From Brumimicrobium salinarum (lineage in GTDB: Bacteria; Bacteroidota; Bacteroidia; Flavobacteriales_D; Crocinitomicaceae): 64,000 nucleotides of DNA. The stretch is from positions 62,001 to 126,000 of the forward strand of contig NZ_PJNI01000001.1 in NCBI RefSeq assembly GCF_002844555.1. The letters are read 5' to 3'. Both the position numbers and the translations under genes were made by a program. Every line of letters starts with the position of its first letter. Position 1 is the stretch's first letter. Under the pieces are notes generated by a model. The model made no database searches. It was not told the DNA's origin and saw only the letters and a list, made by a program, of their open reading frames with translations. This document shows, piece by piece, positions 23,244-59,473 of the stretch.

Positions 23244-23689
23244 ATATCGGTATAATTCTTTTTGGTGGCATTTTTGTCGCGTAGCAAAACAAGAATGATG
23301 ACAAAAAAAATCGTGAATCAAAATATTATCTGTATTCAAAAGTAGCGGGGCTTTTGTGATATAAAATAGCCGATTTTAGTAACTTAGTCAATTTGTTAGA
23401 TAGAATTATTCATGAACACGAAATCTCAGCGAAGCATCTCGTAAGGTCATTAATAATCTAGGGTTAAACTATTAGTCTGGAGTTGAAGATTTTTTCTTGA
23501 TTCTCCGCCTTCTTACCACTAAGAATTTTAATGGATATCTTGCTTGATAGTCAACCTTTAAGTTAAAATCCTCAATCTGTAAGACTTTTATTGTAAAAAA
23601 TGAAATATCAAAAGATATATATAAAGATTTCTCGTCATCCCAATAAATTGGGATTCTGTCGAAAAGACCGGTTTCAGGCTAAGACAAAT

Positions 23690-23728
23690 GGAAAAAAGAA
23701 GAAAAGCAGAGCTTTTCTTCTTTTTTCC
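23690..23728. terminator. perfect 18-bp hairpin, possible bidirectional terminator
   Basis: An 18-base purine-rich arm (23690-23707), a 3-base loop AGA and its exact complement (23711-23728) form a very stable hairpin. It lies between the convergent trp operon and the minus-strand barrel gene. The 3' arm itself is T-rich, but no separate T run follows. Confidence 0.5.
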
Positions 23729-23805
23729 TAATTTGACCCCACACGACTGTCATTTCGATCATCCCAAAAATCAAAGATTTTGGGATGGAGAAATCTATAA
23801 AAATG

Positions 23806-24546
23806 TTACTGGTATAGTCGTGGGGAATCACTTTTTTTCTTGAGTGAAAAAGTATAACTCAATCCGAGTTGCGCATTTATATGATGAAACATCTTTGATT
23901 CTACTGGTACATTTTTTAACATTTCACGGTAATTGTCGCCATCATACCACTCTAAGTATTTATATTTCATTTTCCTTAGACTATAACCCATAGAAAAATT
24001 GAGGCGTACATCTTTGCTTAAACGAAAATCACAACCTAAAGAAATAGTTCCTAATAAAGGGGTAGATTGATAGAAGTTTGAGTTGTATGAATTATAAGGA
24101 TAAACAGTAAGGTATGTATAATAATTTATAATTCCATAATTCATTCTACCCAAATAACCATCCCTATAGTTTGTGGCTACTTCACTTAAAATGCTCAATC
24201 CTAAATAGGGACGAACTTTCTTTTGATTACTCAATAAATGATACGCAAAAGAACCGCCTATCATGTGACTTTTATATGCGAATTGAGTTTTACCAAGAGC
24301 CTTGTCTTCTGATGATATTATATTAGTCTTGTATCCATAAGTAGCGTAAAAGTAAAAATCACCTTTTGGTCTTTGAAAGTTTAATCCCAATTCTATTTTT
24401 GTAAGGTTGTATAGGTTTGAATAATTATCAAAAATTCGAGTGAAAGATCCATTGGAAAGCTGAGCACTCATCTTTGTTTCATTTTCTTGAGAAAAACTCA
24501 AAAGAGAACATAATACACTAAATATGAAAAGGGTTAAAGATTTCAT
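23806..24546 (-). CDS. outer-membrane beta-barrel protein (module copy 1)
   Basis: The 246-residue protein has a cleaved signal peptide (ending LSFSQ) and alternating amphipathic strands, each flanked by aromatic residues, as in small outer-membrane barrels. It is a paralogue of the barrels at 25801, 27589 and 28537. Its start overlaps by ATGA the stop of a decayed T9SS tail. The first ~30 residues and the last ~60 are almost identical to the 25801 copy while the middle differs, which points to recent exchange. Function unknown; exported partner proteins are suggested by the repeated pairing with T9SS-tailed genes. Confidence 0.75.
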   Translation of the reverse strand: MKSLTLFIFSVLCSLLSFSQENETKMSAQLSNGSFTRIFDNYSNLYNLTKIELGLNFQRPKGDFYFYATYGYKTNIISSEDKALGKTQFAYKSHMIGGSFAYHLLSNQKKVRPYLGLSILSEVATNYRDGYLGRMNYGIINYYTYLTVYPYNSYNSNFYQSTPLLGTISLGCDFRLSKDVRLNFSMGYSLRKMKYKYLEWYDGDNYREMLKNVPVESKMFHHINAQLGLSYTFSLKKKSDSPRLYQ

Positions 24547-24822
24547 TGCTTTATAATTTTAAAGGTTTGACTTTGTTTTTGTAACCTACCAATATACAAC
24601 CCACTCGAAAGAATTTTAGTTATTCTTGTCTCTCCTTTCCCCACCTTATATTCTCCAATAATAGTTCCAGCAAAAGATTAAAGAATAAAAACATCATCTT
24701 GGATGCTTTTTATTGTAAAGGATTTTTCAAACGGATTGGAGTAAATGTTACTTTCTTCTTTTATATTTAAAAATTCTTGTGTAATTATTGTTGTTTCATT
24801 ATACAAATTAACCTCGCTTACT
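24543..24822 (-). pseudogene. decayed T9SS tail with in-frame stop (module copy 1)
   Basis: Translation on the minus strand gives a T9SS-type tail, NIYSNPFEKSFTIKSIQDD (normally YPNPF), interrupted by TAA at 24678-24680. It then continues IIGEYKVGKGETRITKILSSGLYIGRL and ends NQ-type KIIKQ at a TGA that overlaps the barrel start. No body domain is left, so this is the remnant of a larger secreted-protein gene. Confidence 0.65.
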
Positions 24823-25800: not shown

Positions 25801-26535
25801 TTATATTTTAGTATTTTCTTTTGATTTCATTATTGAAAAAGTATAATTCAATCCGAGTTGCGCATTGATAAAATGAAACATTTTTGATTCCACTGGTACA
25901 TTTTTTAACATTTCACGGTAATTGTCGCCATCATACCACTCTAAGTATTTATATTTCATTTTCCTTAGACTATAACCCATAGAAAAATTGAGGCGTACAA
26001 CTTTACTTAAACGAAAATCACAACCTAAAGAAAGTGTGCCTAGAAAAGGGGTAGATTGATAGAAGTTTGAGATATTGAAAAGGTAAGAATTTGTCATAGA
26101 ATTAAGAGGTTTATTTATTATATAAAAAGAATTTGGTGTCATAAAGCCATCTTTATAATTTGTGGCTAATTCACTTAAAATGCTCATTCCAAAATAGGGT
26201 CGGACCTTCCTTTGAATACTCAATAGATGATACTCGAAAGAGCCACCGAACATATGGCTTTTATAAGAAAAGACGGTTAAGCCTGCAGATTTCTGAGAAG
26301 ATAGTAAAAGGTTGGTATTTAAGCCATATGTCACAAATAAATAAAAGTCACCCTTTGCTCTCTGAAAGTTTATGCCAAGATCTATTTTTGTTAGATTATA
26401 AAGATCGTGAGTATTTGTGAAAACGCGAGAGAAGGTACTATTTGAAAGCTGAGCACTCATCTTTGTTTCATTTTCTTGAGAAAAACTCAAAAGAGAACAT
26501 AATACACTAAATATGAAAAGGGCTAAAGTTTTCAT
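25801..26535 (-). CDS. outer-membrane beta-barrel protein (module copy 2)
   Basis: This 244-residue protein has a signal peptide (ending LSFSQ) and the same barrel architecture as the 23806 copy. The C-terminal block from about FSMGYSLRKMKYKYLEW is almost identical to that copy, also at the DNA level, while central loops differ. Its start overlaps by ATGA the stop of the T9SS-tailed gene upstream, so both should be co-translated. Confidence 0.75.
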   Translation of the reverse strand: MKTLALFIFSVLCSLLSFSQENETKMSAQLSNSTFSRVFTNTHDLYNLTKIDLGINFQRAKGDFYLFVTYGLNTNLLLSSQKSAGLTVFSYKSHMFGGSFEYHLLSIQRKVRPYFGMSILSELATNYKDGFMTPNSFYIINKPLNSMTNSYLFNISNFYQSTPFLGTLSLGCDFRLSKVVRLNFSMGYSLRKMKYKYLEWYDGDNYREMLKNVPVESKMFHFINAQLGLNYTFSIMKSKENTKI

Positions 26536-27505
26536 TGTTTGATTAGTTTAAAGGTTTTGTTTTGATTCATAAAAGTGATAATATACATTCCATCATTAAA
26601 AAAAGAGGAGTTAATTTTTGTAAGCCCTTCTTCTATATTGTAAATTCCTATAATTTTTCCTTCTACAGACTTTAAAACCATTTGGTCTTTTTGGGGGCTT
26701 TGAATTGATATGTAGTTTTGAAAAGGATTAGGGAAAACACTTAAAGGCTTTAAGTTGTCGTCTAATTGCAGGGTCTCTTCATTTGATAGACTGTCTAAAC
26801 CCGTGTTGACTAAAGACTTGCTTACCTCGCAATCTTCCTTATACATTACAAACCAAGCAGCAGGTAAATCATTACTACCATTATGACTTACTGTTAATTC
26901 AGGGTATCTTAAGGTAATTCCCCAGTTCCCATTTTTTTATTAGTCTCAATACAATCACTTTTTAAATATCCATCTCCTGCTCGAAAAGCAGAATACCAAT
27001 AAATACGATATTTAGTATGGGTTTTTAAATTGGTTACACGCAATTGCTCAGAATTCTTAACATAGTTCCATTCAGTATTTCTAGGGGTATTATACTTGGG
27101 ATCCATGTTAATATTGCTACAAGGCGATCCTATTCCTCTTGTTTTGACATTATAAGTTCTATTATAAACATAACCTACAGCCATTTTTTTATTAGAAGAA
27201 ATGTAATTCTGTTGTTCTACAGCATACTTCTTAAATATCCCATCATTTTCAGCTTTTCCCATCCCATGCTTCCAGCCTCCCCATGTATCACTCAAGGTAT
27301 TAATTACATCCTCCCCATTCATGTGGTTTTTTACACGAATTGTGGTTTTCCACATATCGTAAATGTGAGGAGCCATGGTTACGTTATCATTTTCATGTGT
27401 GAACTTAAACGGGGTATATCCTGGCCAACTGTTATAACCAGCTATTCCAATAAAAGGTAATTTCATTTTGTCGACAGGAAGCATTGAGTAGTTAGCGCAT
27501 TTCAT
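26532..27505 (-). pseudogene. T9SS-tailed secreted protein, N-truncated and frameshifted (module copy 2)
   Basis: Two frames make one protein. 26909-27505 encodes a Trp/Tyr/Asn-rich domain ending at residues ETNKK, and 26532 upward encodes a region starting about NWGITLRYPELTVSHNG, then a T9SS type A tail (VFPNPFQNYISIQSPQ, KLIKQ). They meet at an A7 run (26932-26938); A8 would join them. A stop lies eight codons before the first ATG and there is no signal peptide, so the N-terminal part seems lost as well. The enzymatic or binding role of the body is not recognisable. Confidence 0.65.
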
Positions 27506-30777: not shown

Positions 30778-30898
30778 TCAGGATGACAGACCTAATAGTG
30801 GTAGGAGGCAAAAATCAGGGGTTGGAAGTGATGGCGCAAGGCGCCATCACTTCCATACCCTGATTTTTGATTGCCCTCCCTTGAAACTGTCATCCTGA
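30778..30898. repeat. nested palindromic element
   Basis: An outer 12-base perfect inverted repeat (TCAGGATGACAG at 30778-30789, complement at 30887-30898) encloses a 28-base inverted repeat (30810-30837 with 30841-30868, two mismatches, 3-base loop). Read as RNA this is one long, very stable hairpin. The flank (GTCATCCTGAACCTTGGAAAA) resembles text near 10235, so related elements may be dispersed in the genome. Confidence 0.75.
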
Positions 30899-48870: not shown

Positions 48871-51756
48871 TTATGCAAACGCTTCTTCCTCTTCGGTATC
48901 GTAAGATGAAATTGCTGGACAAGAACACATCAAGTTTCTATCTCCAAATGCGTCATCTATACGTCGTACAGGTGCCCAAAACTTGTTACGAACCAAATAT
49001 TCCAAAGGATATGCAGCTTCTTTTGGTGAATAATCATATTTCCAATCTTGATTAATCATACATTCAGCTGTATGCGGTGCATTTTTGAGTAAATTACTGT
49101 CTTGATCTGCATGTCCGTCTTCAATGTATTGAATTTCTTTTCGGATATTAATCATTGCCTCACAGAATCGATCCAATTCACCTGTGTCTTCAGATTCTGT
49201 TGGTTCTATCATCAATGTTCCCGCCACAGGGAAGGAAACAGTTGGAGAATGGAAGCCATAATCAATTAAACGTTTTGCAATATCGGCAACTTCAATTCCA
49301 GCTGTGCGCTTAAATTCACGACAGTCTAAAATCATTTCATGTCCTACCGTATTGTTTTCTCCAGAATATAAAATCGGGTAGTGCTTGCTCAATCTTGCTT
49401 TAATGTAGTTGGCATTTACAATGGCAATTTCCGTGGAATGTTTAAGTCCTTTTGTACCTAACATTTTGATGTAAGCATAAGAAATTAATAAGATTAAGGC
49501 ACTTCCATAAGGCGCACCAGAAATAGCATGAATTGCTTTTTCTCCACCTACACCTTCAACTAATGGACTTCCAGGAATAAAAGGTGCTAAGTGTTTAGCT
49601 ACACCGATTGGTCCCATTCCAGGTCCACCACCACCATGCGGAATTGCAAATGTTTTGTGCAAGTTCAAGTGACAAACATCTGCACCAATATTCCCTGGAT
49701 TAGTTAATCCGACTTGTGCATTCATGTTAGCACCATCCATATAAACTTGTCCACCGTGATCATGAATAATCTGTGTGATTTCTTTAATTCCAGCTTCAAA
49801 AACACCATGTGTAGAAGGATACGTAACCATAATAGCTCCTAATTTATCGCTGTGTTTTTCTGCATTTTTACGCAAATCTTCAATGTCGATGTTTCCAGCT
49901 TCGTCACATTTAGTCACTACAACTTTAAATCCGGCCATCACTGCTGATGCTGGATTTGTACCATGTGCTGAAGAAGGGATTAAACAAATGTTTCTTTGCG
50001 AATCACCATTTGATTCATGGTAAGCTTTAATTGCCATTAATCCAGCGTACTCTCCTTGTGCACCTGAGTTAGGCTGCATTGACATTGCGTGGAAACCAGT
50101 AATTTCACATAAGTCTTTTTCAAGACCTTTGATCATTTCGTGGTAACCTGTCGCTTGGTTAACAGGAGCAAATGGGTGTAAATTTGAAAATTCTGGCCAT
50201 GTAATTGGCATCAATTGCGCTGCGGCATTCAATTTCATTGTACAAGAACCTAAAGCAATCATGGAATGAACCAATGAAAGGTCTTTGTTCTCCAACCATT
50301 TCATGTAACGCATCATTTTTGTTTCCGAATGATATGAATTGAAGACTTCGTGTGTTAATATTGGATTTTTTCTCGCTAAATCTTGATTTACTTTAGCGCT
50401 AATAAACTCAACATCTATCTTCGTTTCTTTTGCTGCAAGACCTAATACAGAAACAAGGCCTTCAACCTCGGCATCATTTGTTCTTTCACCTACACTAATA
50501 GAAAACTGATTTTCGTTGATGTAACGCAAATTAATATGATGTTCTTCAGCAACAGTTTTTAACTGCTGACAAGTTAACCCTTCAGGAGTTTCTATCCACA
50601 AAGTGTCAAAATAGTCATCATGTAATACTTTATATCCCGCTTTCTCAATGGATTGGTGGATGGTTGCCGTTTGATTGTGAATATTTTGTGCAATATATTT
50701 CAATCCTTCTGGACCATGATAAACTGCATACATTCCTGCCATAACAGCCAACAAAGCCTGAGCTGTACAAATATTTGAAGTTGCCCTATCTCTTTTAATA
50801 TGTTGTTCACGGGTCTGTAGTGCCATTCGGTAAGCTACATTACCATCTGCATCTTTAGAAACCCCGATAATTCTCCCAGGAATATGTCTTTTGTAACTCT
50901 CACGCGTTGCAAAATAAGCAGCATGTGGTCCACCGTATCCCATTGGAACACCAAATCGTTGTGTTGAGCCACAAACAACATCCACCCCCATTTTTCCAGG
51001 CGCTTCTAATAAAACCAACGACATAATATCGGCTGCCACAGCAACTTTTACATTTTGTTTAGTTGCTTTATCAACAAATCCTCTTAGGTCTTTCACACGA
51101 CCATAAACATCTGGATATTGAACTAAAGCACCAAAAATGGTATCATCTGTTAAATCATAATTGGTTGGGTCTCCAAACACCAACTCAATTCCCAAGTGTT
51201 TTGCTCTCCCTTTGATTACATCAATGGTTTGCGGATAGGTAAATTCAGAAACGAAAAATTTGTTTTTACCAGCTTTAACATCCTTACGTGCTCTTGCGTT
51301 GAAGAACATAATCATTGCCTCTGCCGCTGCTGTAGATTCATCTAGCAAAGAAGCGTTGGCAATTTCTAAGCCTGTAAGGTCCATAATCATGGTTTGGAAG
51401 TTCAATAAAGCTTCCAATCTTCCTTGGGCAATTTCAGCTTGATAAGGCGTGTAAGCCGTGTACCAACCAGGGTTCTCTAAAATATTTCTTTGGATAACTG
51501 GCGGTACGTTTGTCTCACTGTATCCTAATCCAATATAAGATTTGAATACTTTATTTTTCACGGCCAAATCACCGATATGGTCTAAATACTGTTTTTCTGT
51601 TAGGGCAGTATCAATGTTTAATTCATTTTTTAATCGAATGTCTTTTGGAACCGTTAATTCCATCAATTCATCAATTGAATCTACTCCGATCTCTGCTAAC
51701 ATGGCCTTTTTCTCATCTTGAGAAGGACCAATGTGTCTTTTTGAAAATGCGTGCAT
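48871..51756 (-). CDS. gcvP: glycine dehydrogenase (decarboxylating), P protein
   Basis: The 961-residue single-chain P protein is a PLP enzyme of the glycine cleavage system that decarboxylates glycine and passes the aminomethyl group to the lipoyl H protein. It starts with the family sequence FSKRHIGPS; the second half has the PLP lysine in LNLHKTFAIPHGGGGPG and MDGANMNAQVG. The long frame to 51936 is rejected because a consensus -7 element lies at 51780-51787. The gcvT and gcvH genes are not in the window. Confidence 0.96.
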   Translation of the reverse strand: MHAFSKRHIGPSQDEKKAMLAEIGVDSIDELMELTVPKDIRLKNELNIDTALTEKQYLDHIGDLAVKNKVFKSYIGLGYSETNVPPVIQRNILENPGWYTAYTPYQAEIAQGRLEALLNFQTMIMDLTGLEIANASLLDESTAAAEAMIMFFNARARKDVKAGKNKFFVSEFTYPQTIDVIKGRAKHLGIELVFGDPTNYDLTDDTIFGALVQYPDVYGRVKDLRGFVDKATKQNVKVAVAADIMSLVLLEAPGKMGVDVVCGSTQRFGVPMGYGGPHAAYFATRESYKRHIPGRIIGVSKDADGNVAYRMALQTREQHIKRDRATSNICTAQALLAVMAGMYAVYHGPEGLKYIAQNIHNQTATIHQSIEKAGYKVLHDDYFDTLWIETPEGLTCQQLKTVAEEHHINLRYINENQFSISVGERTNDAEVEGLVSVLGLAAKETKIDVEFISAKVNQDLARKNPILTHEVFNSYHSETKMMRYMKWLENKDLSLVHSMIALGSCTMKLNAAAQLMPITWPEFSNLHPFAPVNQATGYHEMIKGLEKDLCEITGFHAMSMQPNSGAQGEYAGLMAIKAYHESNGDSQRNICLIPSSAHGTNPASAVMAGFKVVVTKCDEAGNIDIEDLRKNAEKHSDKLGAIMVTYPSTHGVFEAGIKEITQIIHDHGGQVYMDGANMNAQVGLTNPGNIGADVCHLNLHKTFAIPHGGGGPGMGPIGVAKHLAPFIPGSPLVEGVGGEKAIHAISGAPYGSALILLISYAYIKMLGTKGLKHSTEIAIVNANYIKARLSKHYPILYSGENNTVGHEMILDCREFKRTAGIEVADIAKRLIDYGFHSPTVSFPVAGTLMIEPTESEDTGELDRFCEAMINIRKEIQYIEDGHADQDSNLLKNAPHTAECMINQDWKYDYSPKEAAYPLEYLVRNKFWAPVRRIDDAFGDRNLMCSCPAISSYDTEEEEAFA

Positions 51757-51779
51757 GTAATACAGTTTATTTGAGACTG

Positions 51780-51787
51780 CAAATATA
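51780..51787 (-). promoter_or_regulatory. -7 promoter element of gcvP
   Basis: On the minus strand this reads TATATTTG (consensus TAnnTTTG), 24 bases before the ATG at 51756. Confidence 0.6.
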
Positions 51788-51992
51788 AGCTTTATAGTAT
51801 GGAGAATAAAATAATTTGAATTAATAAGATAAGCTTTGATAAAAAGCTTACAATTATTTGATTTTGGAGAAGGAAGAAAAGGGAGTTTGATCAGGAACCC
51901 AATTTGTTGACATCCATTGGATTTTAAATATACCATCTTATCCTAACCGAAGTTATCAAATATTAAAATTTAACCCGCTTTATTAACAATAT

Positions 51993-52322
51993 TTATTCCT
52001 TCAAGATCTTTCTTTCTCCCACCAATTGTCCATTCTCAGTAAATACCTTTACAAAGTAAACTCCTCTAGATAGAATACTTAAATCAAATGTTTGTCGCAT
52101 AGATTTACCTGTTTTAGTTGCAATGGTTTTACCGCTAATATCAACCAATTGCATAATTACGCCTGATTCTATTGCATTTTTGTTTTGCATTAAAAGCCCG
52201 TTGGCATCTCTTAAATAAAAACCTTTTAAAACGGGTGTTTCAGAAAGATAACTTTTGATAGGCTCATCTTTTTTACAAGAAATAATTATCAGCAATAGTG
52301 TTAAAAATAGTGTTGCTTTCAT
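51993..52322 (-). CDS. chimeric lipoprotein: KDEP-type leader fused to a T9SS tail
   Basis: Residues 1-46 (lipoprotein signal with ISCKKDE, then SYLSETPVLKGF and YLRDANGLLMQ) match the starts of the genes at 53222 and 56964. From about residue 48 (AIESGVIMQLVDISGKTI to the GERKILKE end) it instead matches the last 60 residues of the T9SS-tailed gene at 55916. It looks like an in-frame recombination product. It is preceded, with a three-base gap, by a PKD-type lipoprotein. Whether a lipid anchor plus T9SS tail is functional is unknown. Confidence 0.72.
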   Translation of the reverse strand: MKATLFLTLLLIIISCKKDEPIKSYLSETPVLKGFYLRDANGLLMQNKNAIESGVIMQLVDISGKTIATKTGKSMRQTFDLSILSRGVYFVKVFTENGQLVGERKILKE

Positions 52323-52325
52323 CGT

Positions 52326-52646
52326 TTATTCTGTAATTATAATCGTTTTTGTTTTCGTGTCCGATCTCAACCCTTTACTTACTGTGAGGTCAATGATGTA
52401 TTCTCCTGCGCTTTCATAAACATGAACAGGATTGTCATCATCACTAATTGACATATTGCCCAGATTCCAAGAATATTTTTTAGCATCTATTGATAAATTG
52501 TTGAAACTCACTTCTTCTCCAGCTTTTCGTTCAAGTCGCGTCCAAGAGAAGTCTGCTTCGGGTTTTGCTGAACAAGCAATTAAAAAAATAATCATGGTAT
52601 AAAATATAGTTGTTCGTATACTATTTATTCTTTTGCTTTTTTTCAT
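52326..52646 (-). CDS. PKD-domain lipoprotein (copy A)
   Basis: The 106-residue protein has a lipoprotein signal (FLIACSAKPE) and one PKD-like beta sandwich (DFSWTRLERKAGEEVSFNN, YSWNLGNMSISDDDNP, VYESAGEYIIDLTVS). It is the near-identical twin of the gene at 57489, with about ten base differences over ~326 bases. The ATG at 52646 aligns with that copy. PKD domains mediate binding at the cell surface. Confidence 0.78.
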   Translation of the reverse strand: MKKSKRINSIRTTIFYTMIIFLIACSAKPEADFSWTRLERKAGEEVSFNNLSIDAKKYSWNLGNMSISDDDNPVHVYESAGEYIIDLTVSKGLRSDTKTKTIIITE

Positions 52647-52736
52647 CCTAAAAATTTGATTAAATGGATAACACTTCATTTTGGATCTTTATCTAGAGTT
52701 TAATTGGGTCTATATTCACTACACCTAAAAAAGTAC

Positions 52737-53198
52737 TTATCTTAGTTTTTTCTTTTTAATGTTGTTTTCATATTCAAAATAAAGAATATAGTTTTCCTTA
52801 GAGGATAAATCATACTGCTCCAAAATTTGATCTACAGGATACAAAATATCTTGTATACTCTTTGCCTTAATAAGAATAAAATTGGGTAAGTCTATCGGGT
52901 TTGCTTCAATTTTCCTTTTAGGTGAAACCTTAAAGCCAGTTTGATTTTTGACATCTACTCTGGCAAAGCCAGAGGTACAGAACCAAATATCTTGAGATGA
53001 AAAATTAGAAACACTAAAAACAATGGTATTTGTATCAATACCTTTATTAGCTTCTATGTCTACTTCTTGCGCTACATAGATTTTATTACCGTTGTCTTGG
53101 TTGGACTTAGTAATATTTAGTGGGTTCTGTGAGAAGGCACTAATACTTGATGTAAGAAATAATAAAACTATTAATCTTGTCTTTAATTTAATTACCAT
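52737..53198 (-). CDS. hypothetical exported protein
   Basis: The 153-residue protein has a signal peptide (LFLTSSISAFSQ) and a mature part with alternating hydrophobic strands (IVFSVSNFSSQDIWFCTSGF) and a basic end. No family is recognised. It lies in the RHS accessory cluster, so a role as immunity or accessory factor is possible but unproven. Confidence 0.6.
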   Translation of the reverse strand: MVIKLKTRLIVLLFLTSSISAFSQNPLNITKSNQDNGNKIYVAQEVDIEANKGIDTNTIVFSVSNFSSQDIWFCTSGFARVDVKNQTGFKVSPKRKIEANPIDLPNFILIKAKSIQDILYPVDQILEQYDLSSKENYILYFEYENNIKKKKLR

Positions 53199-53221
53199 GT
53201 CAAATGCTTTAAGGTTAATAA

Positions 53222-53464
53222 TTATTTCAATTCAGAAATTTCTTTTCTCAATAATTCTATCTCCATTTTTAATTCATCTGATTTTTCGTCTTGCTCAATT
53301 AAATAAAGCGTTAGCTCTTCAACTTTTTGCATTAAAAGCCCGTTGGCATCTCTTAAATAAAAACCTTTTAAAACGGGTGGTTCGGAAAGATAACTCTTGA
53401 CGGATTCATCTTTTTTACATGATAGGGTTATCAGGAGTAGTGTTAAAAATAGTGTTACTTTCAT
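53222..53464 (-). CDS. chimeric lipoprotein: shared leader fused to a coiled coil
   Basis: Residues 1-46 repeat the shared lipoprotein leader (LSCKKDES, SYLSEPPVLKGF, YLRDANGLLMQ). The rest, KVEELTLYLIEQDEKSDELK and on to EISELK, is the C-terminal coiled coil usual for tail-fibre/RHS-linked T9SS proteins. The start overlaps by ATGA the stop of an RHS junction remnant. This is a second product of the shuffling seen at 51993. Confidence 0.65.
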   Translation of the reverse strand: MKVTLFLTLLLITLSCKKDESVKSYLSEPPVLKGFYLRDANGLLMQKVEELTLYLIEQDEKSDELKMEIELLRKEISELK

Positions 53465-53535
53465 AGAGTTTTAATTACATTATTTAAATCGGATTCAACA
53501 AAATCACCACTAGGATCTGTATATTTCAAAGGAAT
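53461..53535 (-). pseudogene. RHS core junction remnant (displaced toxin tip)
   Basis: About 25 codons read NIPLKYTDPSGDFVESDLNN and end at a TGA overlapping the next ATG. The match is to the core boundary of the 54479 RHS gene (NNPLRYTDPSGD), after which RHS proteins switch to a variable toxin domain. Here the tip is only ~11 residues, so it is a remnant of an older tip or a donor fragment. Confidence 0.65.
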
Positions 53536-53537
53536 AT

Positions 53538-53926
53538 TCAATTTTTACATTTTTTAGGCCAGTTTGGAACGGGAGGTTCTTCTTCAAATTGATTAACCAA
53601 ATCCATAAAATCAGACTCTTCTAAGATTCTATAATACGTATTTAAATGGCTGTTATCAGGGTTGTTATCTTCAAAAACGACTAAATATGATCTACCTATC
53701 ATTTTTGAATCTTCTTGACCTATACCATAGGCTCTTAGTTTGGCTGAGTAGCCTACTCCGTCAATATTATAATTATAAGTCACTCTCGTTGGAACATTAA
53801 CAGAACTTTCAACTTTACCAATTGCATAGCCGTGTTGGCTTTCATAAATTTCGCAAATTCTGTTTTTTTCTTTTCTACAACTTATTAGAATAATTAGTAG
53901 AAGCATTAAAAGAATATTTTTTTCAT
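53538..53926 (-). CDS. hypothetical lipoprotein, frame broken at codons 2-4 by A7
   Basis: The ATG at 53926, two bases after the previous stop, is followed by seven A (53917-53923 as T). With eight A it would read MKKNILLMLLLIILISCRKEK, a perfect lipoprotein signal, in frame with the body (ICEIYESQHGYAIGKVESS, RILEESDFMDLVNQFEEEP). With seven the frame closes at once. An internal ATG (MLLLIILISC) might rescue poor export. It lies in the toxin cluster behind the likely immunity gene. Function unknown. Confidence 0.6.
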
Positions 53927-53928
53927 CA

Positions 53929-54468
53929 CTAATCTGTATATTTATTTGTACTGTCTGGTTTTGGGCTGAATTTTTTGAAATGGTAAATTTCATCTTTAGG
54001 CCTTACTTCAGTTTTTTCTCCTTTTTGATTTCTATAGCTTTTTGTTATGTGAAATGTTGTATCATTTAGTATTGTTCCTTCACGAACATAAGTTTTTAAA
54101 GGCCCACCTGAACTAGTGTACCATTTTTCAAATTTAAAAATATTTTCATCAACCCTATAAACTCCCCAGCAATATATAGTATTCTTTATATCACTATAAA
54201 ATTCACCTGTTTTAAATTCCTCTTCACGGGTCTCTAAATATTCTTCTTTAATAGTTAAAGCGTGTAAAACAACTCCATTATTATACAAAAATAAAATTGC
54301 ATAATGATTAGTGTTATCAACAGGATATTTATAATAAAAGTATCCTGATATCTTTAATTCATCGCCGAAATAATCCATTTTTTCCAATGATAGTTCATCA
54401 TTTTTAAAAAGTGACTTTCCACAACCTATAAGAAGAAATATAAGTATTATAAATACGACTTTGTTCAT
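53929..54468 (-). CDS. lipoprotein, candidate immunity protein of the RHS toxin
   Basis: The 179-residue protein has a lipoprotein signal (MNKVVFIILIFLLIGCGKS). The mature part has an even mix of beta and charged residues (EKMDYFGDELKISGYFYYK, VYRVDENIFKFEKWY). No family is recognised. It starts ten bases after the stop of the RHS toxin gene, the usual place for an immunity gene, and lipoprotein location would suit protection in the periplasm. The immunity role is inferred from position only. The longer frame to 54624 overlaps the toxin and is rejected. Confidence 0.65.
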   Translation of the reverse strand: MNKVVFIILIFLLIGCGKSLFKNDELSLEKMDYFGDELKISGYFYYKYPVDNTNHYAILFLYNNGVVLHALTIKEEYLETREEEFKTGEFYSDIKNTIYCWGVYRVDENIFKFEKWYTSSGGPLKTYVREGTILNDTTFHITKSYRNQKGEKTEVRPKDEIYHFKKFSPKPDSTNKYTD

Positions 54469-54478
54469 AATTTTAAGT

Positions 54479-55849
54479 TTACCATAATGAGTTACCTGTT
54501 CCTGTTCCAATATTCCAATACCAACTTGATTTTTTGTTATGATCTTTTGCAAAATGAGGTAATTTCTTTCCTCCACTAAATAGTGCGAAAGCAATATCAT
54601 GAGCAAAACGGTTTTGAATGGCATGCCTTATTTTTTCAGAGTTTCTGCCAAGTTTTAACCCTGCAAACCCAATGTACGCTACGCCAGAACGATATTCGTC
54701 TGGATCATCTCCATATTCATTTTTCAAATAAGTTAATTGACCATTTACGTATTGAGGATTTCTTTCTTCATCAGTAAGACCAGGATCACCAGTATACAAA
54801 TTAAATCCTACATTAAGATTATATAAAGAAAATTTTCCAGCTGCTGTTCTATATCTATCACCACCATCAGCAGGTAATCCAAACATAAAATCATTTTCGT
54901 ATTTAAAGTTGATTTTTGGCCCACCTATCGTTATTACATTCGTAGATTGATTATATTTTTTATCTTGAAAAGCATAATTTGTATTTGCTGATTTAATAGG
55001 TCCTATACCCACTTCAAAACCATATCTAAACTCCCACCCTTGGTAATTATTTTTATTATCGCTAAAGTGATATGAGATTCCTCCTTCAGCTCTTGCATGA
55101 ATTAGGAGTTTTTGAGGTACTCCAAAAGAAGCATCAATTCCAATAGAAGTTCCATTTGAACTAGCATTAAAATTGACTTTAAATGCTATTGGAGAGACAT
55201 ATTTCCAAAATGCATATCCAAAATCAGTAAATGCAACTATATCTCCACTAGGATCCGTATATCGCAAAGGGTTATTCCAAACATAACTATATCGGTTATA
55301 GCTTTGTGAAAATATAGGATCTTGAACGTATTTGTCAGGACTTAACATTCTCCCTAAAATAGGATCATAAATACGACCATTCATATTGATTAATTCAAAA
55401 TGCGGTAAGTGTTCATGTCCTGTATAGCCTCGCAACCATGTTGGGGTAGAAGTAAGATTACTGTAAGTCCAATTACTTGAATTTCGATTTCGTCCCCAAG
55501 CATCAAAGCTTTGTTCAAGAACAACATCTCCATTCTCGTTTGTTAAAGCTACAATACTTCCTAAATGATCCTTGTAGGTGAAATATGTTTCAGTTGTACT
55601 GTTTCCATTTTGTTCTTCTTTTACAACAATAGCCGTCATGCCGTCACTTGCATTGATGTAGTTTATATGTCGGGTAATGTTTCCATCTATTTCCTTTTCG
55701 TATAATCCAACGAAATATTTCTCCATTACAATTCCGTTTTGGTCGGAAAAGGAGGTTTTGCGCCTTTGTTCGTCAATGCCATAAAGGAATTGTAAGGAGT
55801 AGTCGCCTTTAAAATAGTAGTTTTGATATAATTGAGTAATAACATTCAT
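54479..55849 (-). CDS. RHS core-domain protein with polymorphic toxin type 23-like tip (N-truncated)
   Basis: The 456-residue protein has the terminal RHS core in residues 1-205 (YKDHLGSIVALTNENGDVV, FDAWGRNRN, GYTGHEHLPHFELINMNGR, YDPILGRMLSPDKYVQDP, NRYSYVWNNPLRYTDPSGD). From about residue 206 the tip resembles type 23 polymorphic toxins, from memory: KYENDFMFGL, GGDRYRTAAGKFSLYN, LYTGDPG and SEKIRHAIQNRFAHDIAF. A complete RHS shell needs well over 1000 residues, so the N-terminal part is missing; there is no signal peptide. It may be a displaced cassette that is expressed only after recombination with a full RHS gene. Confidence 0.82.
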   Translation of the reverse strand: MNVITQLYQNYYFKGDYSLQFLYGIDEQRRKTSFSDQNGIVMEKYFVGLYEKEIDGNITRHINYINASDGMTAIVVKEEQNGNSTTETYFTYKDHLGSIVALTNENGDVVLEQSFDAWGRNRNSSNWTYSNLTSTPTWLRGYTGHEHLPHFELINMNGRIYDPILGRMLSPDKYVQDPIFSQSYNRYSYVWNNPLRYTDPSGDIVAFTDFGYAFWKYVSPIAFKVNFNASSNGTSIGIDASFGVPQKLLIHARAEGGISYHFSDNKNNYQGWEFRYGFEVGIGPIKSANTNYAFQDKKYNQSTNVITIGGPKINFKYENDFMFGLPADGGDRYRTAAGKFSLYNLNVGFNLYTGDPGLTDEERNPQYVNGQLTYLKNEYGDDPDEYRSGVAYIGFAGLKLGRNSEKIRHAIQNRFAHDIAFALFSGGKKLPHFAKDHNKKSSWYWNIGTGTGNSLW

Positions 55850-55915
55850 ATCATCGAAAATAACGAATTTAATTGAGAGATGAGCGTTTTTTTTGAATAT
55901 CTAGATCCAATTTTT

Positions 55916-56380
55916 TCATTCTTTCAAAATCTTTCTTTCTCCCACCAGTTGTTCATTCTCAGTAAATACCTTTACAAAATAAATTCCATTTGATAAACTG
56001 TTTAAATCAAATGTATGGCGCAAGGATTTACCTGTTTTGGTTGAAATGATTTTTCCACCAATATCAACCAATTGCATAATTACACCTGATTCTATTGCAA
56101 CCTTGTGTTCTTCACTAACAGTTTCTTGATCTAATAAAACCGACACTTCTGTTTTGTCGAAAGTGGGGTTCGGCTGTGCTTGTAAATCAATACCGCAGTT
56201 TACTAAATTTTCCATCGCTGTACTTTCAGTAAGGTCATTGGGTTGAATGATAAGACCACTACCTGTGCCTTCTCTTTTAATGCGATTACCAGCATCATCA
56301 TAGGTGTAGGCTACTTCATTTTGAGCGAATAGTGTTCCGCTGAAAAGAATGCAAATTGGAATTATTGATAATTTCATCAT
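55916..56380 (-). CDS. T9SS-tailed protein with a single YD-repeat motif
   Basis: The 154-residue protein has a signal peptide (LFSGTLFAQ), then AYTYDDAGNRIKREGTG, which is an RHS/YD motif, a linker, and a T9SS type A tail (LQAQPNPTFDKTEVSVLLD, GKSLRHTFDLNSLSNGIYF, GERKILKE). It sits directly upstream of the RHS gene. Its tail is the source-like sequence of the fusion at 51993. It could be a surface partner of the RHS system. Confidence 0.75.
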   Translation of the reverse strand: MMKLSIIPICILFSGTLFAQNEVAYTYDDAGNRIKREGTGSGLIIQPNDLTESTAMENLVNCGIDLQAQPNPTFDKTEVSVLLDQETVSEEHKVAIESGVIMQLVDIGGKIISTKTGKSLRHTFDLNSLSNGIYFVKVFTENEQLVGERKILKE

Positions 56381-56389
56381 TTCTGTTTT

Positions 56390-56929
56390 TTAAAAGTAAA
56401 TATTAATTAAGGCCAATGCACCAGTGTTGAAATTAATGCCTCCTGGATTTCCAAAACGGATAGAGTTTTCGTCAGATTTGATGATGTTTGCTTGAACTTC
56501 AAGACCCACACTAAAACGATTGGAGAAAAAATACTCTCCACCGAAGTTTATCCCACCTATAAAATCAAAAATATTTTCTGGTTTATCTGGGGTAGGAAGA
56601 CCTATTGGCTCTTCATTTTTAGTCGGAAAATCCATTATTGTAGCTGCTCTAATACCAAGGTAAGGTCTTAAGGCATTAACTTTTTCATTCAAATAAAAGC
56701 GAGGGGCCAAGCCAAACTGTGTTACCCAACCATAATTATCACTAAACTGTGCCCCAATGGAAGGAGCTAGAACTACATTTTCTCCCAACCAAATTGGAAT
56801 TTGTATTCCTACCGAGGAACTTTGAATGGCTGCACTAATTCCGATTCTTGGAGATTTTTCTTCTGTTTCTTGTGCAAAAGAAAAGGCTGTAAATAAGCCT
56901 GCTAAACAAATAAGTGTTAATTTTTTCAT
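56390..56929 (-). CDS. outer-membrane beta-barrel protein
   Basis: The 179-residue protein has a signal peptide (LFTAFSFAQ) and about eight predicted strands (GISAAIQSSSVGIQIPIW, RPYLGIRAATIMDF, GGEYFFSNRFSVGLEVQANI) ending in Phe (LALINIYF), the typical signal for insertion by BamA. It resembles small OmpW/porin-like barrels in size. Ten bases separate it from the YD/T9SS gene, so it shares that operon. Confidence 0.78.
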   Translation of the reverse strand: MKKLTLICLAGLFTAFSFAQETEEKSPRIGISAAIQSSSVGIQIPIWLGENVVLAPSIGAQFSDNYGWVTQFGLAPRFYLNEKVNALRPYLGIRAATIMDFPTKNEEPIGLPTPDKPENIFDFIGGINFGGEYFFSNRFSVGLEVQANIIKSDENSIRFGNPGGINFNTGALALINIYF

Positions 56930-56963
56930 TTCAGTTTATTTTAAAATTTTTGCTATTTAATTT

Positions 56964-57485
56964 TTATTCATTGATGATATTGTCGTATAAAATGTAATCT
57001 CCGTAATCAATATAAACCCTAAACACCCCAGGGTCTATGTTTTGAGGTAAATTAAATGCAGCTACGCCTCCAACATTAGTTGGTAAATCACTAAATTCTG
57101 GAATAAGCTCCGCTTCAAAGACAACTAGATTTTGATCTGGAACAATTGTATTTGGTAAACTCGAAATGTTTCCAATACTGCCATCAACAACCCCTCTAAC
57201 TACAGTTATTTTGACTTTGTTTGAGGATTTGTTACCAAAAAAAATAGACAAGAAATTAGTAGGTGAATTTAGATATGAATTTAAAACAAAAGTTTGCTTT
57301 CCGCTCTCTGGATTTTCAGAATACTTAACGTTAGGTACACCTATTTTTTGCATTAAAACACCATTGCCGTCTCTAATATTAAACCCTTTTAAAACGGGTG
57401 GTTCAGAAAGATAACTCTTGATGGGTTCATCTTTTTTACATGATAAAAATATCAATAGTAGTGTTAATAATAGTGTTGCTTTCAT
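56964..57485 (-). CDS. lipoprotein with the shared KDEP leader (full-length copy)
   Basis: The 173-residue lipoprotein (FLSCKKDEP, Cys 16) starts with the 46-residue leader (SYLSEPPVLKGF) found also at 51993 and 53222, but continues into a full beta-sandwich domain (VKYSENPESGKQTFVLNSY, VFRVYIDYGDYILYDNI). This is likely the ancestral form. It lies three bases after the PKD lipoprotein, as in the 52 kb copy. Confidence 0.72.
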   Translation of the reverse strand: MKATLLLTLLLIFLSCKKDEPIKSYLSEPPVLKGFNIRDGNGVLMQKIGVPNVKYSENPESGKQTFVLNSYLNSPTNFLSIFFGNKSSNKVKITVVRGVVDGSIGNISSLPNTIVPDQNLVVFEAELIPEFSDLPTNVGGVAAFNLPQNIDPGVFRVYIDYGDYILYDNIINE

Positions 57486-57809
57486 CGTTTATTCTGTAAT
57501 TATAATCGTTTTTGTTTTCGTGTCCGATCTCAACCCTTTACTTGCTGTGAGGTCAATGATGTGTTCTCCTGCGCTTTCATAAACATGAACAGGATTGTCA
57601 TCATCACTAATTGACATGTTGCCCAGATTCCAAGAATATTTTTTAGCATCTATTGATAAATTGTTGAAACTAACTTCTTCTCCAGCTTTTGGTTCAAGTG
57701 GCGTCCAAGAGAAGTCTGCTTTGGGTTTTGCTGAACAAGCAACTAAAAAAATAATCATGGTATAAAATATAGTTGTTCGTAAACTATTTATTCTTTTGCT
57801 TTTTTTCAT
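57482..57809. repeat. direct repeat, copy of 52319-52646
   Basis: About 326 bases covering the whole PKD gene and the first bases of the next gene match 52319-52646 with roughly ten differences counted by eye. The two copies are 5.2 kb apart in the same orientation, so recombination would delete or duplicate the RHS segment between them. Confidence 0.8.
57489..57809 (-). CDS. PKD-domain lipoprotein (copy B)
   Basis: The 106-residue twin of the 52326 gene has the same signal (FLVACSAKPK) and PKD-like fold, differing at a handful of residues (WTPLEPK instead of WTRLERK). It has the same position directly before the leader lipoprotein. Confidence 0.78.
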   Translation of the reverse strand: MKKSKRINSLRTTIFYTMIIFLVACSAKPKADFSWTPLEPKAGEEVSFNNLSIDAKKYSWNLGNMSISDDDNPVHVYESAGEHIIDLTASKGLRSDTKTKTIIITE

Positions 57810-57853
57810 GGGTAAATAATTCAGATCTACTTTTAGTTTATTATTTAATCTAG

Positions 57854-58249
57854 TTATTTCAAGTCGTCATTATTGATTATTACAGTACATTTAACTTTTT
57901 TCTTATCATTTTCGATTAACCAATTATCTTCGTTTTTAAAATTTTTTACTGCTGTTTTAGTCGAATCAATTGTGATAACTTTTAAAGAGTCAAACTCTCT
58001 AGAACAACAATCGAAATGCTTTGCTTTGCCCCATTTACTTTTACTGTAAAGTGTAACCTTTTGACCGATATCCATAGTAAACGATGTGTCTTTATTTTGA
58101 TCATGAAGAGCCTTAAATTCAACGACAACCTTTTCAGATGTATTGTTAAATACTTCTATACTCAAATCCAATATTGGGTCACATGATGTTAAAAGAAACA
58201 GACCCATAGTAACTATTAGGAAATGACATTTTTTTGCTTTGAAATTCAT
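57854..58249 (-). CDS. hypothetical lipoprotein
   Basis: The 131-residue lipoprotein (GLFLLTSCDP, Cys about 23) has a beta-rich mature part with a CC pair (AKHFDCCSREF). No family is recognised. It overlaps the upstream gene by ATGA and ends shortly before the PKD gene, so it belongs to the same transcription unit. It could be an accessory or immunity factor. Confidence 0.65.
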   Translation of the reverse strand: MNFKAKKCHFLIVTMGLFLLTSCDPILDLSIEVFNNTSEKVVVEFKALHDQNKDTSFTMDIGQKVTLYSKSKWGKAKHFDCCSREFDSLKVITIDSTKTAVKNFKNEDNWLIENDKKKVKCTVIINNDDLK

Positions 58250-58437
58250 ATGATTATTTTATTGATTGTTGTACAATTACTCTGAACAGGAACAATTCCA
58301 GTTAATTCAATTTCAATATTGACTGAATAATTTTGTGCTGAAGATGAATTTACAGAAGATGAATAAGTTGTTGTTTGACCTAAGACAGTTAAACTAAATC
58401 CTAGAATAGCGAAAATGCAGATTGTAATTAATTTCAT
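58246..58437 (-). CDS. small exported protein
   Basis: The 63-residue protein has a signal peptide (FAILGFSLTVLGQ) and a short Ser/Asn-rich mature part (TTTYSSSVNSSSAQNYSVN). It is coupled to the next gene by an ATGA overlap, which supports real translation. It could also be the N-terminal relic of a longer protein. Function unknown. Confidence 0.5.
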   Translation of the reverse strand: MKLITICIFAILGFSLTVLGQTTTYSSSVNSSSAQNYSVNIEIELTGIVPVQSNCTTINKIII

Positions 58438-58654: not shown

Positions 58655-59473
58655 ATGAGAGCACTCCAATATCTAATATACAGCAACATCCTAGTCAGCT
58701 TTTCAGCTGGGCTGCTTGCATATTCTTGCGCCATTCAATTGGGTAATCCGCATGATATTGGAATTGGAATTACGGTATTTTTTGCCACGCTTTTCATTTA
58801 TAATATTCAACGTATTTTAAGGTTGGGAGAAATCAAAGTTAAATCTTCAGATCGCCATCATTGGTTAGAAAATCATACCGTTTTTATAAAAATCCTTGCT
58901 GGAATCGGAATTATTGGTTCTGTACTCACTTATTTTTTGGTTTTGGGATGGAATATCGATTTTTGGTTCTTGGCTTTTAGTGCGATCATCGGTGTGCTTT
59001 ATGCTATGAAAATCCATCCAAAGTCAATGGCGTTACGCGATATTCCTTATGCTAAGATTTATTTAATCGCTGCACAATGGGCGCTTGTTTCTGTGTATTG
59101 GCCTTATATGAGAATAGCGGATACAACAGATTTTCCTGTTGGTTTAGGACTCTCCATTTTCTTCTTTATTCTCGCTGCCACAGTTCCATTTGACATTCGA
59201 GACTTGGTTTACGACGGAAAACAGAAATCAACAATTCCACAAATCTTTGGGGTGAAAGGTGCGAAGATTATTGCACTTGTTTTTGCAGGATTAAGTGCGA
59301 TGAGTTTGTATCTTTTCTTTCCAGAGGTTGTTCATTTATGGGTGTTTTATGGCTGTTATTTGGTTCTAGGAATGCTAATAGTTGGCAGTCGAACCAACCG
59401 ACATGAAATGTACTATTCTGGAATTATTGATGGGTGGATAATTGCTTATGGATTGTTGATTTATTTCTTATAA
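58655..59473 (+). CDS. UbiA-like prenyltransferase family membrane protein
   Basis: The 272-residue protein has about eight membrane helices in the UbiA arrangement. Aspartate motifs are reduced: NIQRILRLGEIK in place of NDIxDxxxD, and PFDIRDLVYDGKQK as the second one (DxxxD-like). UbiA enzymes attach isoprenoid chains to aromatic acceptors, but members with an altered first motif, common in Bacteroidota, have unknown substrates. Confidence 0.8.
   Translation: MRALQYLIYSNILVSFSAGLLAYSCAIQLGNPHDIGIGITVFFATLFIYNIQRILRLGEIKVKSSDRHHWLENHTVFIKILAGIGIIGSVLTYFLVLGWNIDFWFLAFSAIIGVLYAMKIHPKSMALRDIPYAKIYLIAAQWALVSVYWPYMRIADTTDFPVGLGLSIFFFILAATVPFDIRDLVYDGKQKSTIPQIFGVKGAKIIALVFAGLSAMSLYLFFPEVVHLWVFYGCYLVLGMLIVGSRTNRHEMYYSGIIDGWIIAYGLLIYFL

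Follow-up and report, generated by a model that had tools for sequence, protein, structure and literature searches.

Does a short reading frame that joins an Rhs-associated core to a toxin-like tip represent a toxin module, the relic of a longer gene, or a protein of another kind? The question is raised by a locus of Brumimicrobium salinarum within the window, by which we mean the whole 64,000-nucleotide stretch of DNA that was analysed (NZ_PJNI01000001.1, positions 62,001 to 126,000). A preliminary description had taken it for a truncated Rhs protein with a type 23-like toxin tip and a lipoprotein behind it, that is, a stored and exchangeable toxin module. The reading that we favour, with a probability of roughly 0.6, is an orphan Rhs toxin-immunity module, in which the tip would be an LpxR-like envelope lipid hydrolase and tips are exchanged at the boundary with the core.

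The Rhs reading frame and its tip

The following features, with their positions in the window, are used throughout.

51993-58437, no strand: variable island between gcvP (48871-51936) and a UbiA-like gene (58655-59473)
~53461-53538, minus strand: remnant of another Rhs core/tip boundary, degraded YTDPSGD, NIPLKYTDPSGDFVESDLNNVIKTL*
53538-53993, minus strand: second lipoprotein-like ORF, possibly a further immunity gene by its position
53929-54468, minus strand: candidate immunity lipoprotein (MNKVVFIILIFLLIGCGKS..., KISGYFYY, C-terminus KPDSTNKYTD), 10 bp after the Rhs stop
54479-55849, minus strand: 5′-truncated Rhs ORF with core and tip, ATG start, 456 aa
54482-55234, minus strand: variable tip, residues 206-456, with PF15528 (Ntox23) at 267-418; in one clade with other Rhs-linked Ntox23
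54599-54616, minus strand: QNRFAH, Q412-H417; H corresponds, with a one-residue shift, to the LpxR general base H122
54845-54859, minus strand: DRYRT, D331-T335; T aligned with the LpxR Ca-site threonine T34
54890-54895, minus strand: N319-D320 of the END motif, aligned with LpxR N9/D10 (Ca ligands)
55241-55261, minus strand: core/tip boundary YTDPSGD, residues 197-203, where the tip changes relative to the sister cassette L001
55244-55504, minus strand: Rhs-associated core, residues 116-202 (TIGR03696 Rhs_assc_core, E 3.1e-14)
55916-56380, minus strand: small secreted protein, YTYDDAGNRIKRE plus a T9SS type A sorting domain (PF18962/TIGR04183), directly upstream of the Rhs ORF

The core was recognized by profile search with 53.2 bits against a TIGR03696 cut-off of 32.5, and the frame is arranged as in Rhs polymorphic toxins, with a variable tip behind an Rhs-associated core that ends in DPxG. 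Pfam PF15528 (Ntox23) matched the tip with 84.7 bits against a curated cut-off of 26.2 (E 1e-23), so the search of polymorphic toxin families proposed in the preliminary description bore out its type 23-like tip. In the 2012 catalogue (PMC3482391), Ntox23 is an all-beta domain with the motifs ND, DxxR and H, linked to Rhs and to TcdB/TcaC in Bacteroidetes. The window tip is in keeping with this description, its motifs being N319-D320, DRYR at 331-334 and H417, and two further motifs, TGDPG and NSEKIRHAIQNRFAHD, are located at residues 353-357 and 403-418.

According to profile searches and the N-terminus as read by eye, the ORF is without a signal peptide, an SpvB/FG-GAP part or Rhs repeats. 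Rhs repeats (PF05593) gave no scoring match anywhere in the host genome, and DNA homology to L001 begins only at about residue 14; the ORF is therefore truncated to core and variable tip with its 5′ part gone, as had been proposed. The full-length relative L078 contains SpvB, FG-GAP, RHS repeats and Ntox23 in one gene, and both L078 and L082 have the Rhs/YD repeat shell as well as an N-terminal delivery part. Since both parts are absent here, the ORF is a cassette and not a complete Rhs toxin. A T9SS C-terminal sorting domain was likewise absent from it by profile search and present in the neighbouring gene at 55916-56380, and a defence-system library gave no match.

Three Rhs cores occur in the host genome, each in a short frame and all with different tips; the Ntox23 tip is thus not the common end of host Rhs copies. 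The other two (L004 / L137 on G000:C86 and L138 on G000:C5) are short and bear other tips, and near the copy on G000:C5 the same ORF of ~185 aa (MSRNYRFHNPEAPYFVSFSV...) is present twice. The host assembly contains no full-length Rhs gene to act as recipient of the cassette, so that the gene with a matching YTDPSGD boundary for which the preliminary description advised a search was not found. A second, degraded copy of that boundary lies at ~53461-53538.

Tip exchange and the variable island

The core of the window ORF is 81% identical to that of L001 and the tip only 27%, and the L001 core is joined to a different, non-Ntox23 tip; from this difference, the tip was replaced at DPSGD. Together with the second degraded YTDPSGD boundary, these identities support the exchangeability of tips that had been suggested. 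L001 itself (SKZL01000084.1), which also has a T9SS-tail gene similar to that of the window, lies on a contig assigned to a Balneolaceae MAG, perhaps through misbinning or lateral acquisition. The relative in the congener G204 is 63% identical in the core and 60% in the tip, with pN/pS of 0.28/0.92 for the core, 0.26/0.85 for the tip and 0.33/0.75 for the immunity gene. This shows that the tip and the immunity gene have been under long-term constraint, in a period of selection that may predate the truncation.

The DNA upstream of gcvP was compared in nine congeners. In four of the nine (G151, G196, G204 and G136) the UbiA-like gene adjoins gcvP without cargo, at 117 to ~870 bp, and in G088, G115, G290 and G171 other genes are located between the two. 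The island gains and loses genes. Within it, 52183-52646 is duplicated at 57346-57809 with 93.5% identity. This recent duplication flanks the cassette and covers a PKD lipoprotein together with the beginning of a KKDEPIK lipoprotein, a relative of which is found in the same island of G088. A chimeric ORF (51993-52322), which combines the N-terminus of a lipoprotein with the T9SS-type C-terminal end of 55916-56380, is apparently a recombination product, and the ORF at 53538-53993 had no family match above cut-off in profile searches. Elsewhere the window contains an 80% direct repeat of ~740 bp (23831-24568 / 25818-26557) and two long palindromes (30809-30869 and 23685-23735).

The cassette could instead be a decaying relic, in which the 5′ part was lost, the frame is drifting and is still open by chance or because the loss is recent, and selection maintains the immunity gene at best. 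We take this possibility seriously without expecting it to hold. It would explain the loss of signal peptide and Rhs repeats in an assembly without a full-length Rhs gene, the neighbouring cassette already reduced to NIPLKYTDPSGDFVESDLNNVIKTL*, the truncated G204 relative split between frames, and the lone immunity homologues of other genomes. However, the 456-codon frame is intact and has lost no motif residue, none of core, tip and immunity gene is missing or out of order, and short open core-tip cassettes are common in the genus. In the congener G136, a set of them is found beside full-length Rhs genes with long frames of 2592-3032 codons. Thus, of the earlier idea of a stored and exchangeable module, exchange at the boundary is supported, whereas storage is not favoured over decay, there being no recipient Rhs gene in the assembly.

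Displaced or orphan Rhs effectors with exchangeable immunity genes are known, for example in Serratia (PMC10539506). The Serratia modules resemble the window in having a displaced or lone tip with immunity genes, a conserved boundary and a variable tip. Unlike them, the window belongs to a T9SS-bearing genus and has its cassette in a gcvP/UbiA-like island, with no adjacent full-length Rhs gene and with a T9SS-tail gene in front.

The lipoprotein partner and the two clades of Ntox23

The lipoprotein expected behind the cassette was indeed found there, in a gene (53929-54468) that begins 10 bp past the Rhs stop and has a lipobox-like IGC; for this and all other lipoprotein and signal-peptide calls, N-termini were judged by eye. 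A homologue with 49% amino acid identity follows the Rhs-Ntox23 gene of G204. Ntox23 genes of the Rhs clade are followed directly by a lipoprotein-like gene in G204, G063, G157, G184, G051, G361, G304 and G515, and twice each in G433 and G032. Almost every Rhs-linked copy has such a gene behind it, after a short gap or with a small overlap. The Rhs-linked fragment L088 had no lipoprotein-like gene behind it. Relatives of the window lipoprotein, recognized by G-Y-Y/F-Y ... KPDSTN, also occur as lone genes in other genomes, and twice in G204, which is the pattern that immunity genes follow. Four such lone genes (L178, L179, L180 and L182) adjoin housekeeping or unrelated genes, L179 being directly behind a lysyl-tRNA synthetase-like gene. 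By position, conservation of the pair and lone homologues, we consider the directly downstream lipoprotein a candidate cognate immunity gene.

In L078 the order of genes is a T9SS-tail gene like 55916-56380, the SpvB/FG-GAP/RHS-repeat/Ntox23 gene, and a lipoprotein; the window repeats this order, with a shortened Rhs gene in the middle. A similar setting was reported for the TANFOR polymorphic toxins of Bacteroidetes (PMC7073777), which like Rhs-Ntox23 have Sec signal peptides and lie beside genes with T9SS sorting domains; they differ from the window in the delivery domain, which is SpvB/Rhs here, and in the toxin.

Ntox23 was present in 80 of 299 genomes of the host's order, nearly always as one gene of ~300 codons, and a maximum-likelihood tree divided the family into two clades with 100/100 support. 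The first comprises a single-copy protein with a signal peptide, found in about a quarter of the genomes of the order; the second comprises the Rhs-linked tips, nearly all with a lipoprotein gene directly behind. All 27 standalone Ntox23 proteins in the tree belonged to the first, resident clade and not to toxin loci, and all 27 opened with a signal-peptide-like stretch as judged by eye. No lipoprotein partner was found in the five standalone neighbourhoods examined. L086, a short form with signal peptide and a lipoprotein behind it, was placed in the toxin clade. Most Ntox23 of the order are thus ordinary single-copy signal-peptide genes outside toxin loci, a point that the preliminary description did not make, as it also did not link the motif set to an LpxR-like membrane enzyme. 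The host has a standalone Ntox23 with signal peptide of its own (L033 / L092, G000:C65, ~66571-67482), but recent derivation of the tip from it was ruled out by their identity of 27% and their separate clades. Viral contigs that were scanned contained no Ntox23 relatives.

These partners bear on what the tip might do. A 2026 metagenomic survey (PMC13288982) lists Ntox23 as a predicted RNase effector class, and the tip would then be an Rhs toxin of the cytoplasmic RNase type. That classification, and the conserved His and Asp of the catalogued motif set (PMC3482391), which could serve an RNase, speak for this assignment. We nevertheless find it improbable, as standalone members have signal peptides, the genes that accompany the Rhs-linked clade seem to encode lipoproteins, hence envelope proteins, and Ntox23 motifs and their spacing align with LpxR. 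A lipoprotein as partner is easier to reconcile with a target in the envelope than with classification as an RNase.

Proposed relation to LpxR and proposed function

LpxR (PF09982, PDB 3FID) is a Ca2+-dependent lipid A 3′-O-deacylase that forms a 12-stranded outer-membrane beta-barrel, and its catalysis involves N9, D10 and T34 around Ca2+ with H122 as base (PMC6260217). Both motif blocks, ND (rarely ED or SD)...D..T and then Q[ND]..(.)H, were present in 40 of 40 Ntox23 proteins examined and in both clades, which agrees with the earlier remark that the motif set is quite conserved. Rhs-linked tips keep this N, D, T, Q, H set at only 23-60% identity to the window tip. The median distance from ND to H was 106 in Ntox23; in Bacteroidota LpxR, the distance from ND to Q was mostly 101-109, with H four residues further. 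By profile alignment, the catalytic N, D, T and H of LpxR thus have counterparts in the tip, in order and at similar spacing. The two families share the ND...D..YT hairpin, the Q...H spacing and the strand pattern. Ntox23 differs in having ~120 additional residues ahead of its ND motif, without a match in LpxR, and fewer behind it, in occurring in an Rhs-linked form with a lipoprotein partner, and in an activity that is putative.

Profile-profile comparison gave LpxR a probability of 90% with a mixed Ntox23 profile and of 71-88% over 103-105 columns with Rhs tips alone, both motif blocks being covered. Standalone Ntox23 reached 91% against one LpxR set (112 columns) and 56% against a larger one (90 columns). 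Reversed LpxR as a control gave 0.1-0.2%, and for the tips PLA1 gave 0.1% and OMP_b-brl_2 0.4%; standalone Ntox23 matched OMP_b-brl_2 with 67%, although that match lay in the signal peptide and the first strand. Jackknifed halves of the profiles ranged from 18 to 71%, some losing the second block, so the LpxR signal is real but not strong. The Pfam LpxR model matched seven of 23 A1 Ntox23 proteins, all below cut-off and with a best E of 0.0019; matches of known position fell on the ND..DRFRT hairpin. Its best score was 17.6 bits, for a standalone relative, against a cut-off of 26 bits, and for this reason Ntox23 is not filed as a member of PF09982. None of the Rhs-linked tips matched Pfam LpxR singly, and two standalone members matched CBM60, an unrelated Ca-binding module, at similarly weak E. 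Neither Ntox23 profile matched LpxR 3FID or another relevant structure among solved structures, and a PDB sequence search with the whole Rhs ORF matched its core only (Teneurin-like, SGS4). AlphaFold2 on the tip as a single sequence without alignment gave a pLDDT of 36, too low for the model to be of use. A circular permutation, with the Ntox23 N-terminal part corresponding to the C-terminal half of LpxR, gave no signal. Mutual exclusion of LpxR and Ntox23 was ruled out by ~21 genomes that carry both.

Convergence on a short Ca-site hairpin, with a different fold and chemistry in the two families, could produce part of this likeness. The strongest block covers ~35 columns, the jackknife scores are modest with the second block sometimes lost, and the N-terminal half of Ntox23 is without a match in LpxR. 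Nonetheless, the Q..H block aligns in the right order and with similar spacing whether one starts from the Rhs tips or, separately, from the standalone proteins, and we consider convergence rather unlikely. Judged from the alignments, a remote kinship of Ntox23 with LpxR is the most likely explanation.

The alternating pattern of strands was equally amphipathic in tips and LpxR (z 1.78 in both), compared to 0.38 in control ORFs. Such a barrel-like pattern could also belong to an outer-membrane anchor or translocator of the Rhs protein, with the lipoprotein as its assembly partner, and the signal-peptide-like stretches that open full-length Rhs-Ntox23 proteins would suit this role. We regard it as very improbable, because the same core bears a non-Ntox23 tip in L001, an anchor would have no reason to keep N, D, T, Q and H in such divergent tips, and partner genes occur without any Rhs gene.

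Beyond the window itself, we propose, at slightly less than even odds, a class of toxins with an LpxR-like outer-membrane beta-barrel lipid hydrolase as warhead, delivered by Rhs proteins and countered by envelope immunity lipoproteins, with a resident single-copy sister family among the same bacteria. The barrel fold, lipid substrate, toxicity and delivery that we infer for the Ntox23 tip, and the immunity function of its partner, would combine as follows. The ORF would be the end of an SpvB/Rhs polymorphic toxin, comprising core and C-terminal toxin, together with its lipoprotein immunity gene, tips being swapped by recombination at the conserved core/DPxG boundary. A full-length Rhs protein would carry the Ntox23 tip to a neighbouring cell, where it would attack the envelope by hydrolysing the acyl chains of either lipid A or phospholipid. 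N319, D320 and T335 would hold Ca2+ and H417 would activate water, while the lipoprotein would block the tip in the producer's own envelope. Because the window copy is without signal peptide and shell, it would first have to recombine with a full-length Rhs gene before it could serve as a weapon; otherwise it would be a relic whose immunity gene is still of use.

Compared to the 2012 catalogue (PMC3482391), in which no immunity partner of Ntox23 is given, we describe a directly linked lipoprotein family, a division into resident and toxin clades and a proposed relation to LpxR, all of which we consider new; no paper naming both polymorphic toxins and LpxR was found in the literature searched. 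If this proposal is true, Ntox23, now a predicted RNase, would become a lipid hydrolase of the envelope; compartment and assay would change, the lipoprotein partner would take on another meaning, and four residues would stand out for mutation. Pfam-based counts of toxins would be inflated by Ntox23 of the resident clade, and the two clades would have to be told apart in surveys where Ntox23 is scored as a weapon or as a virulence factor (PMC9329510, PMC13288982).
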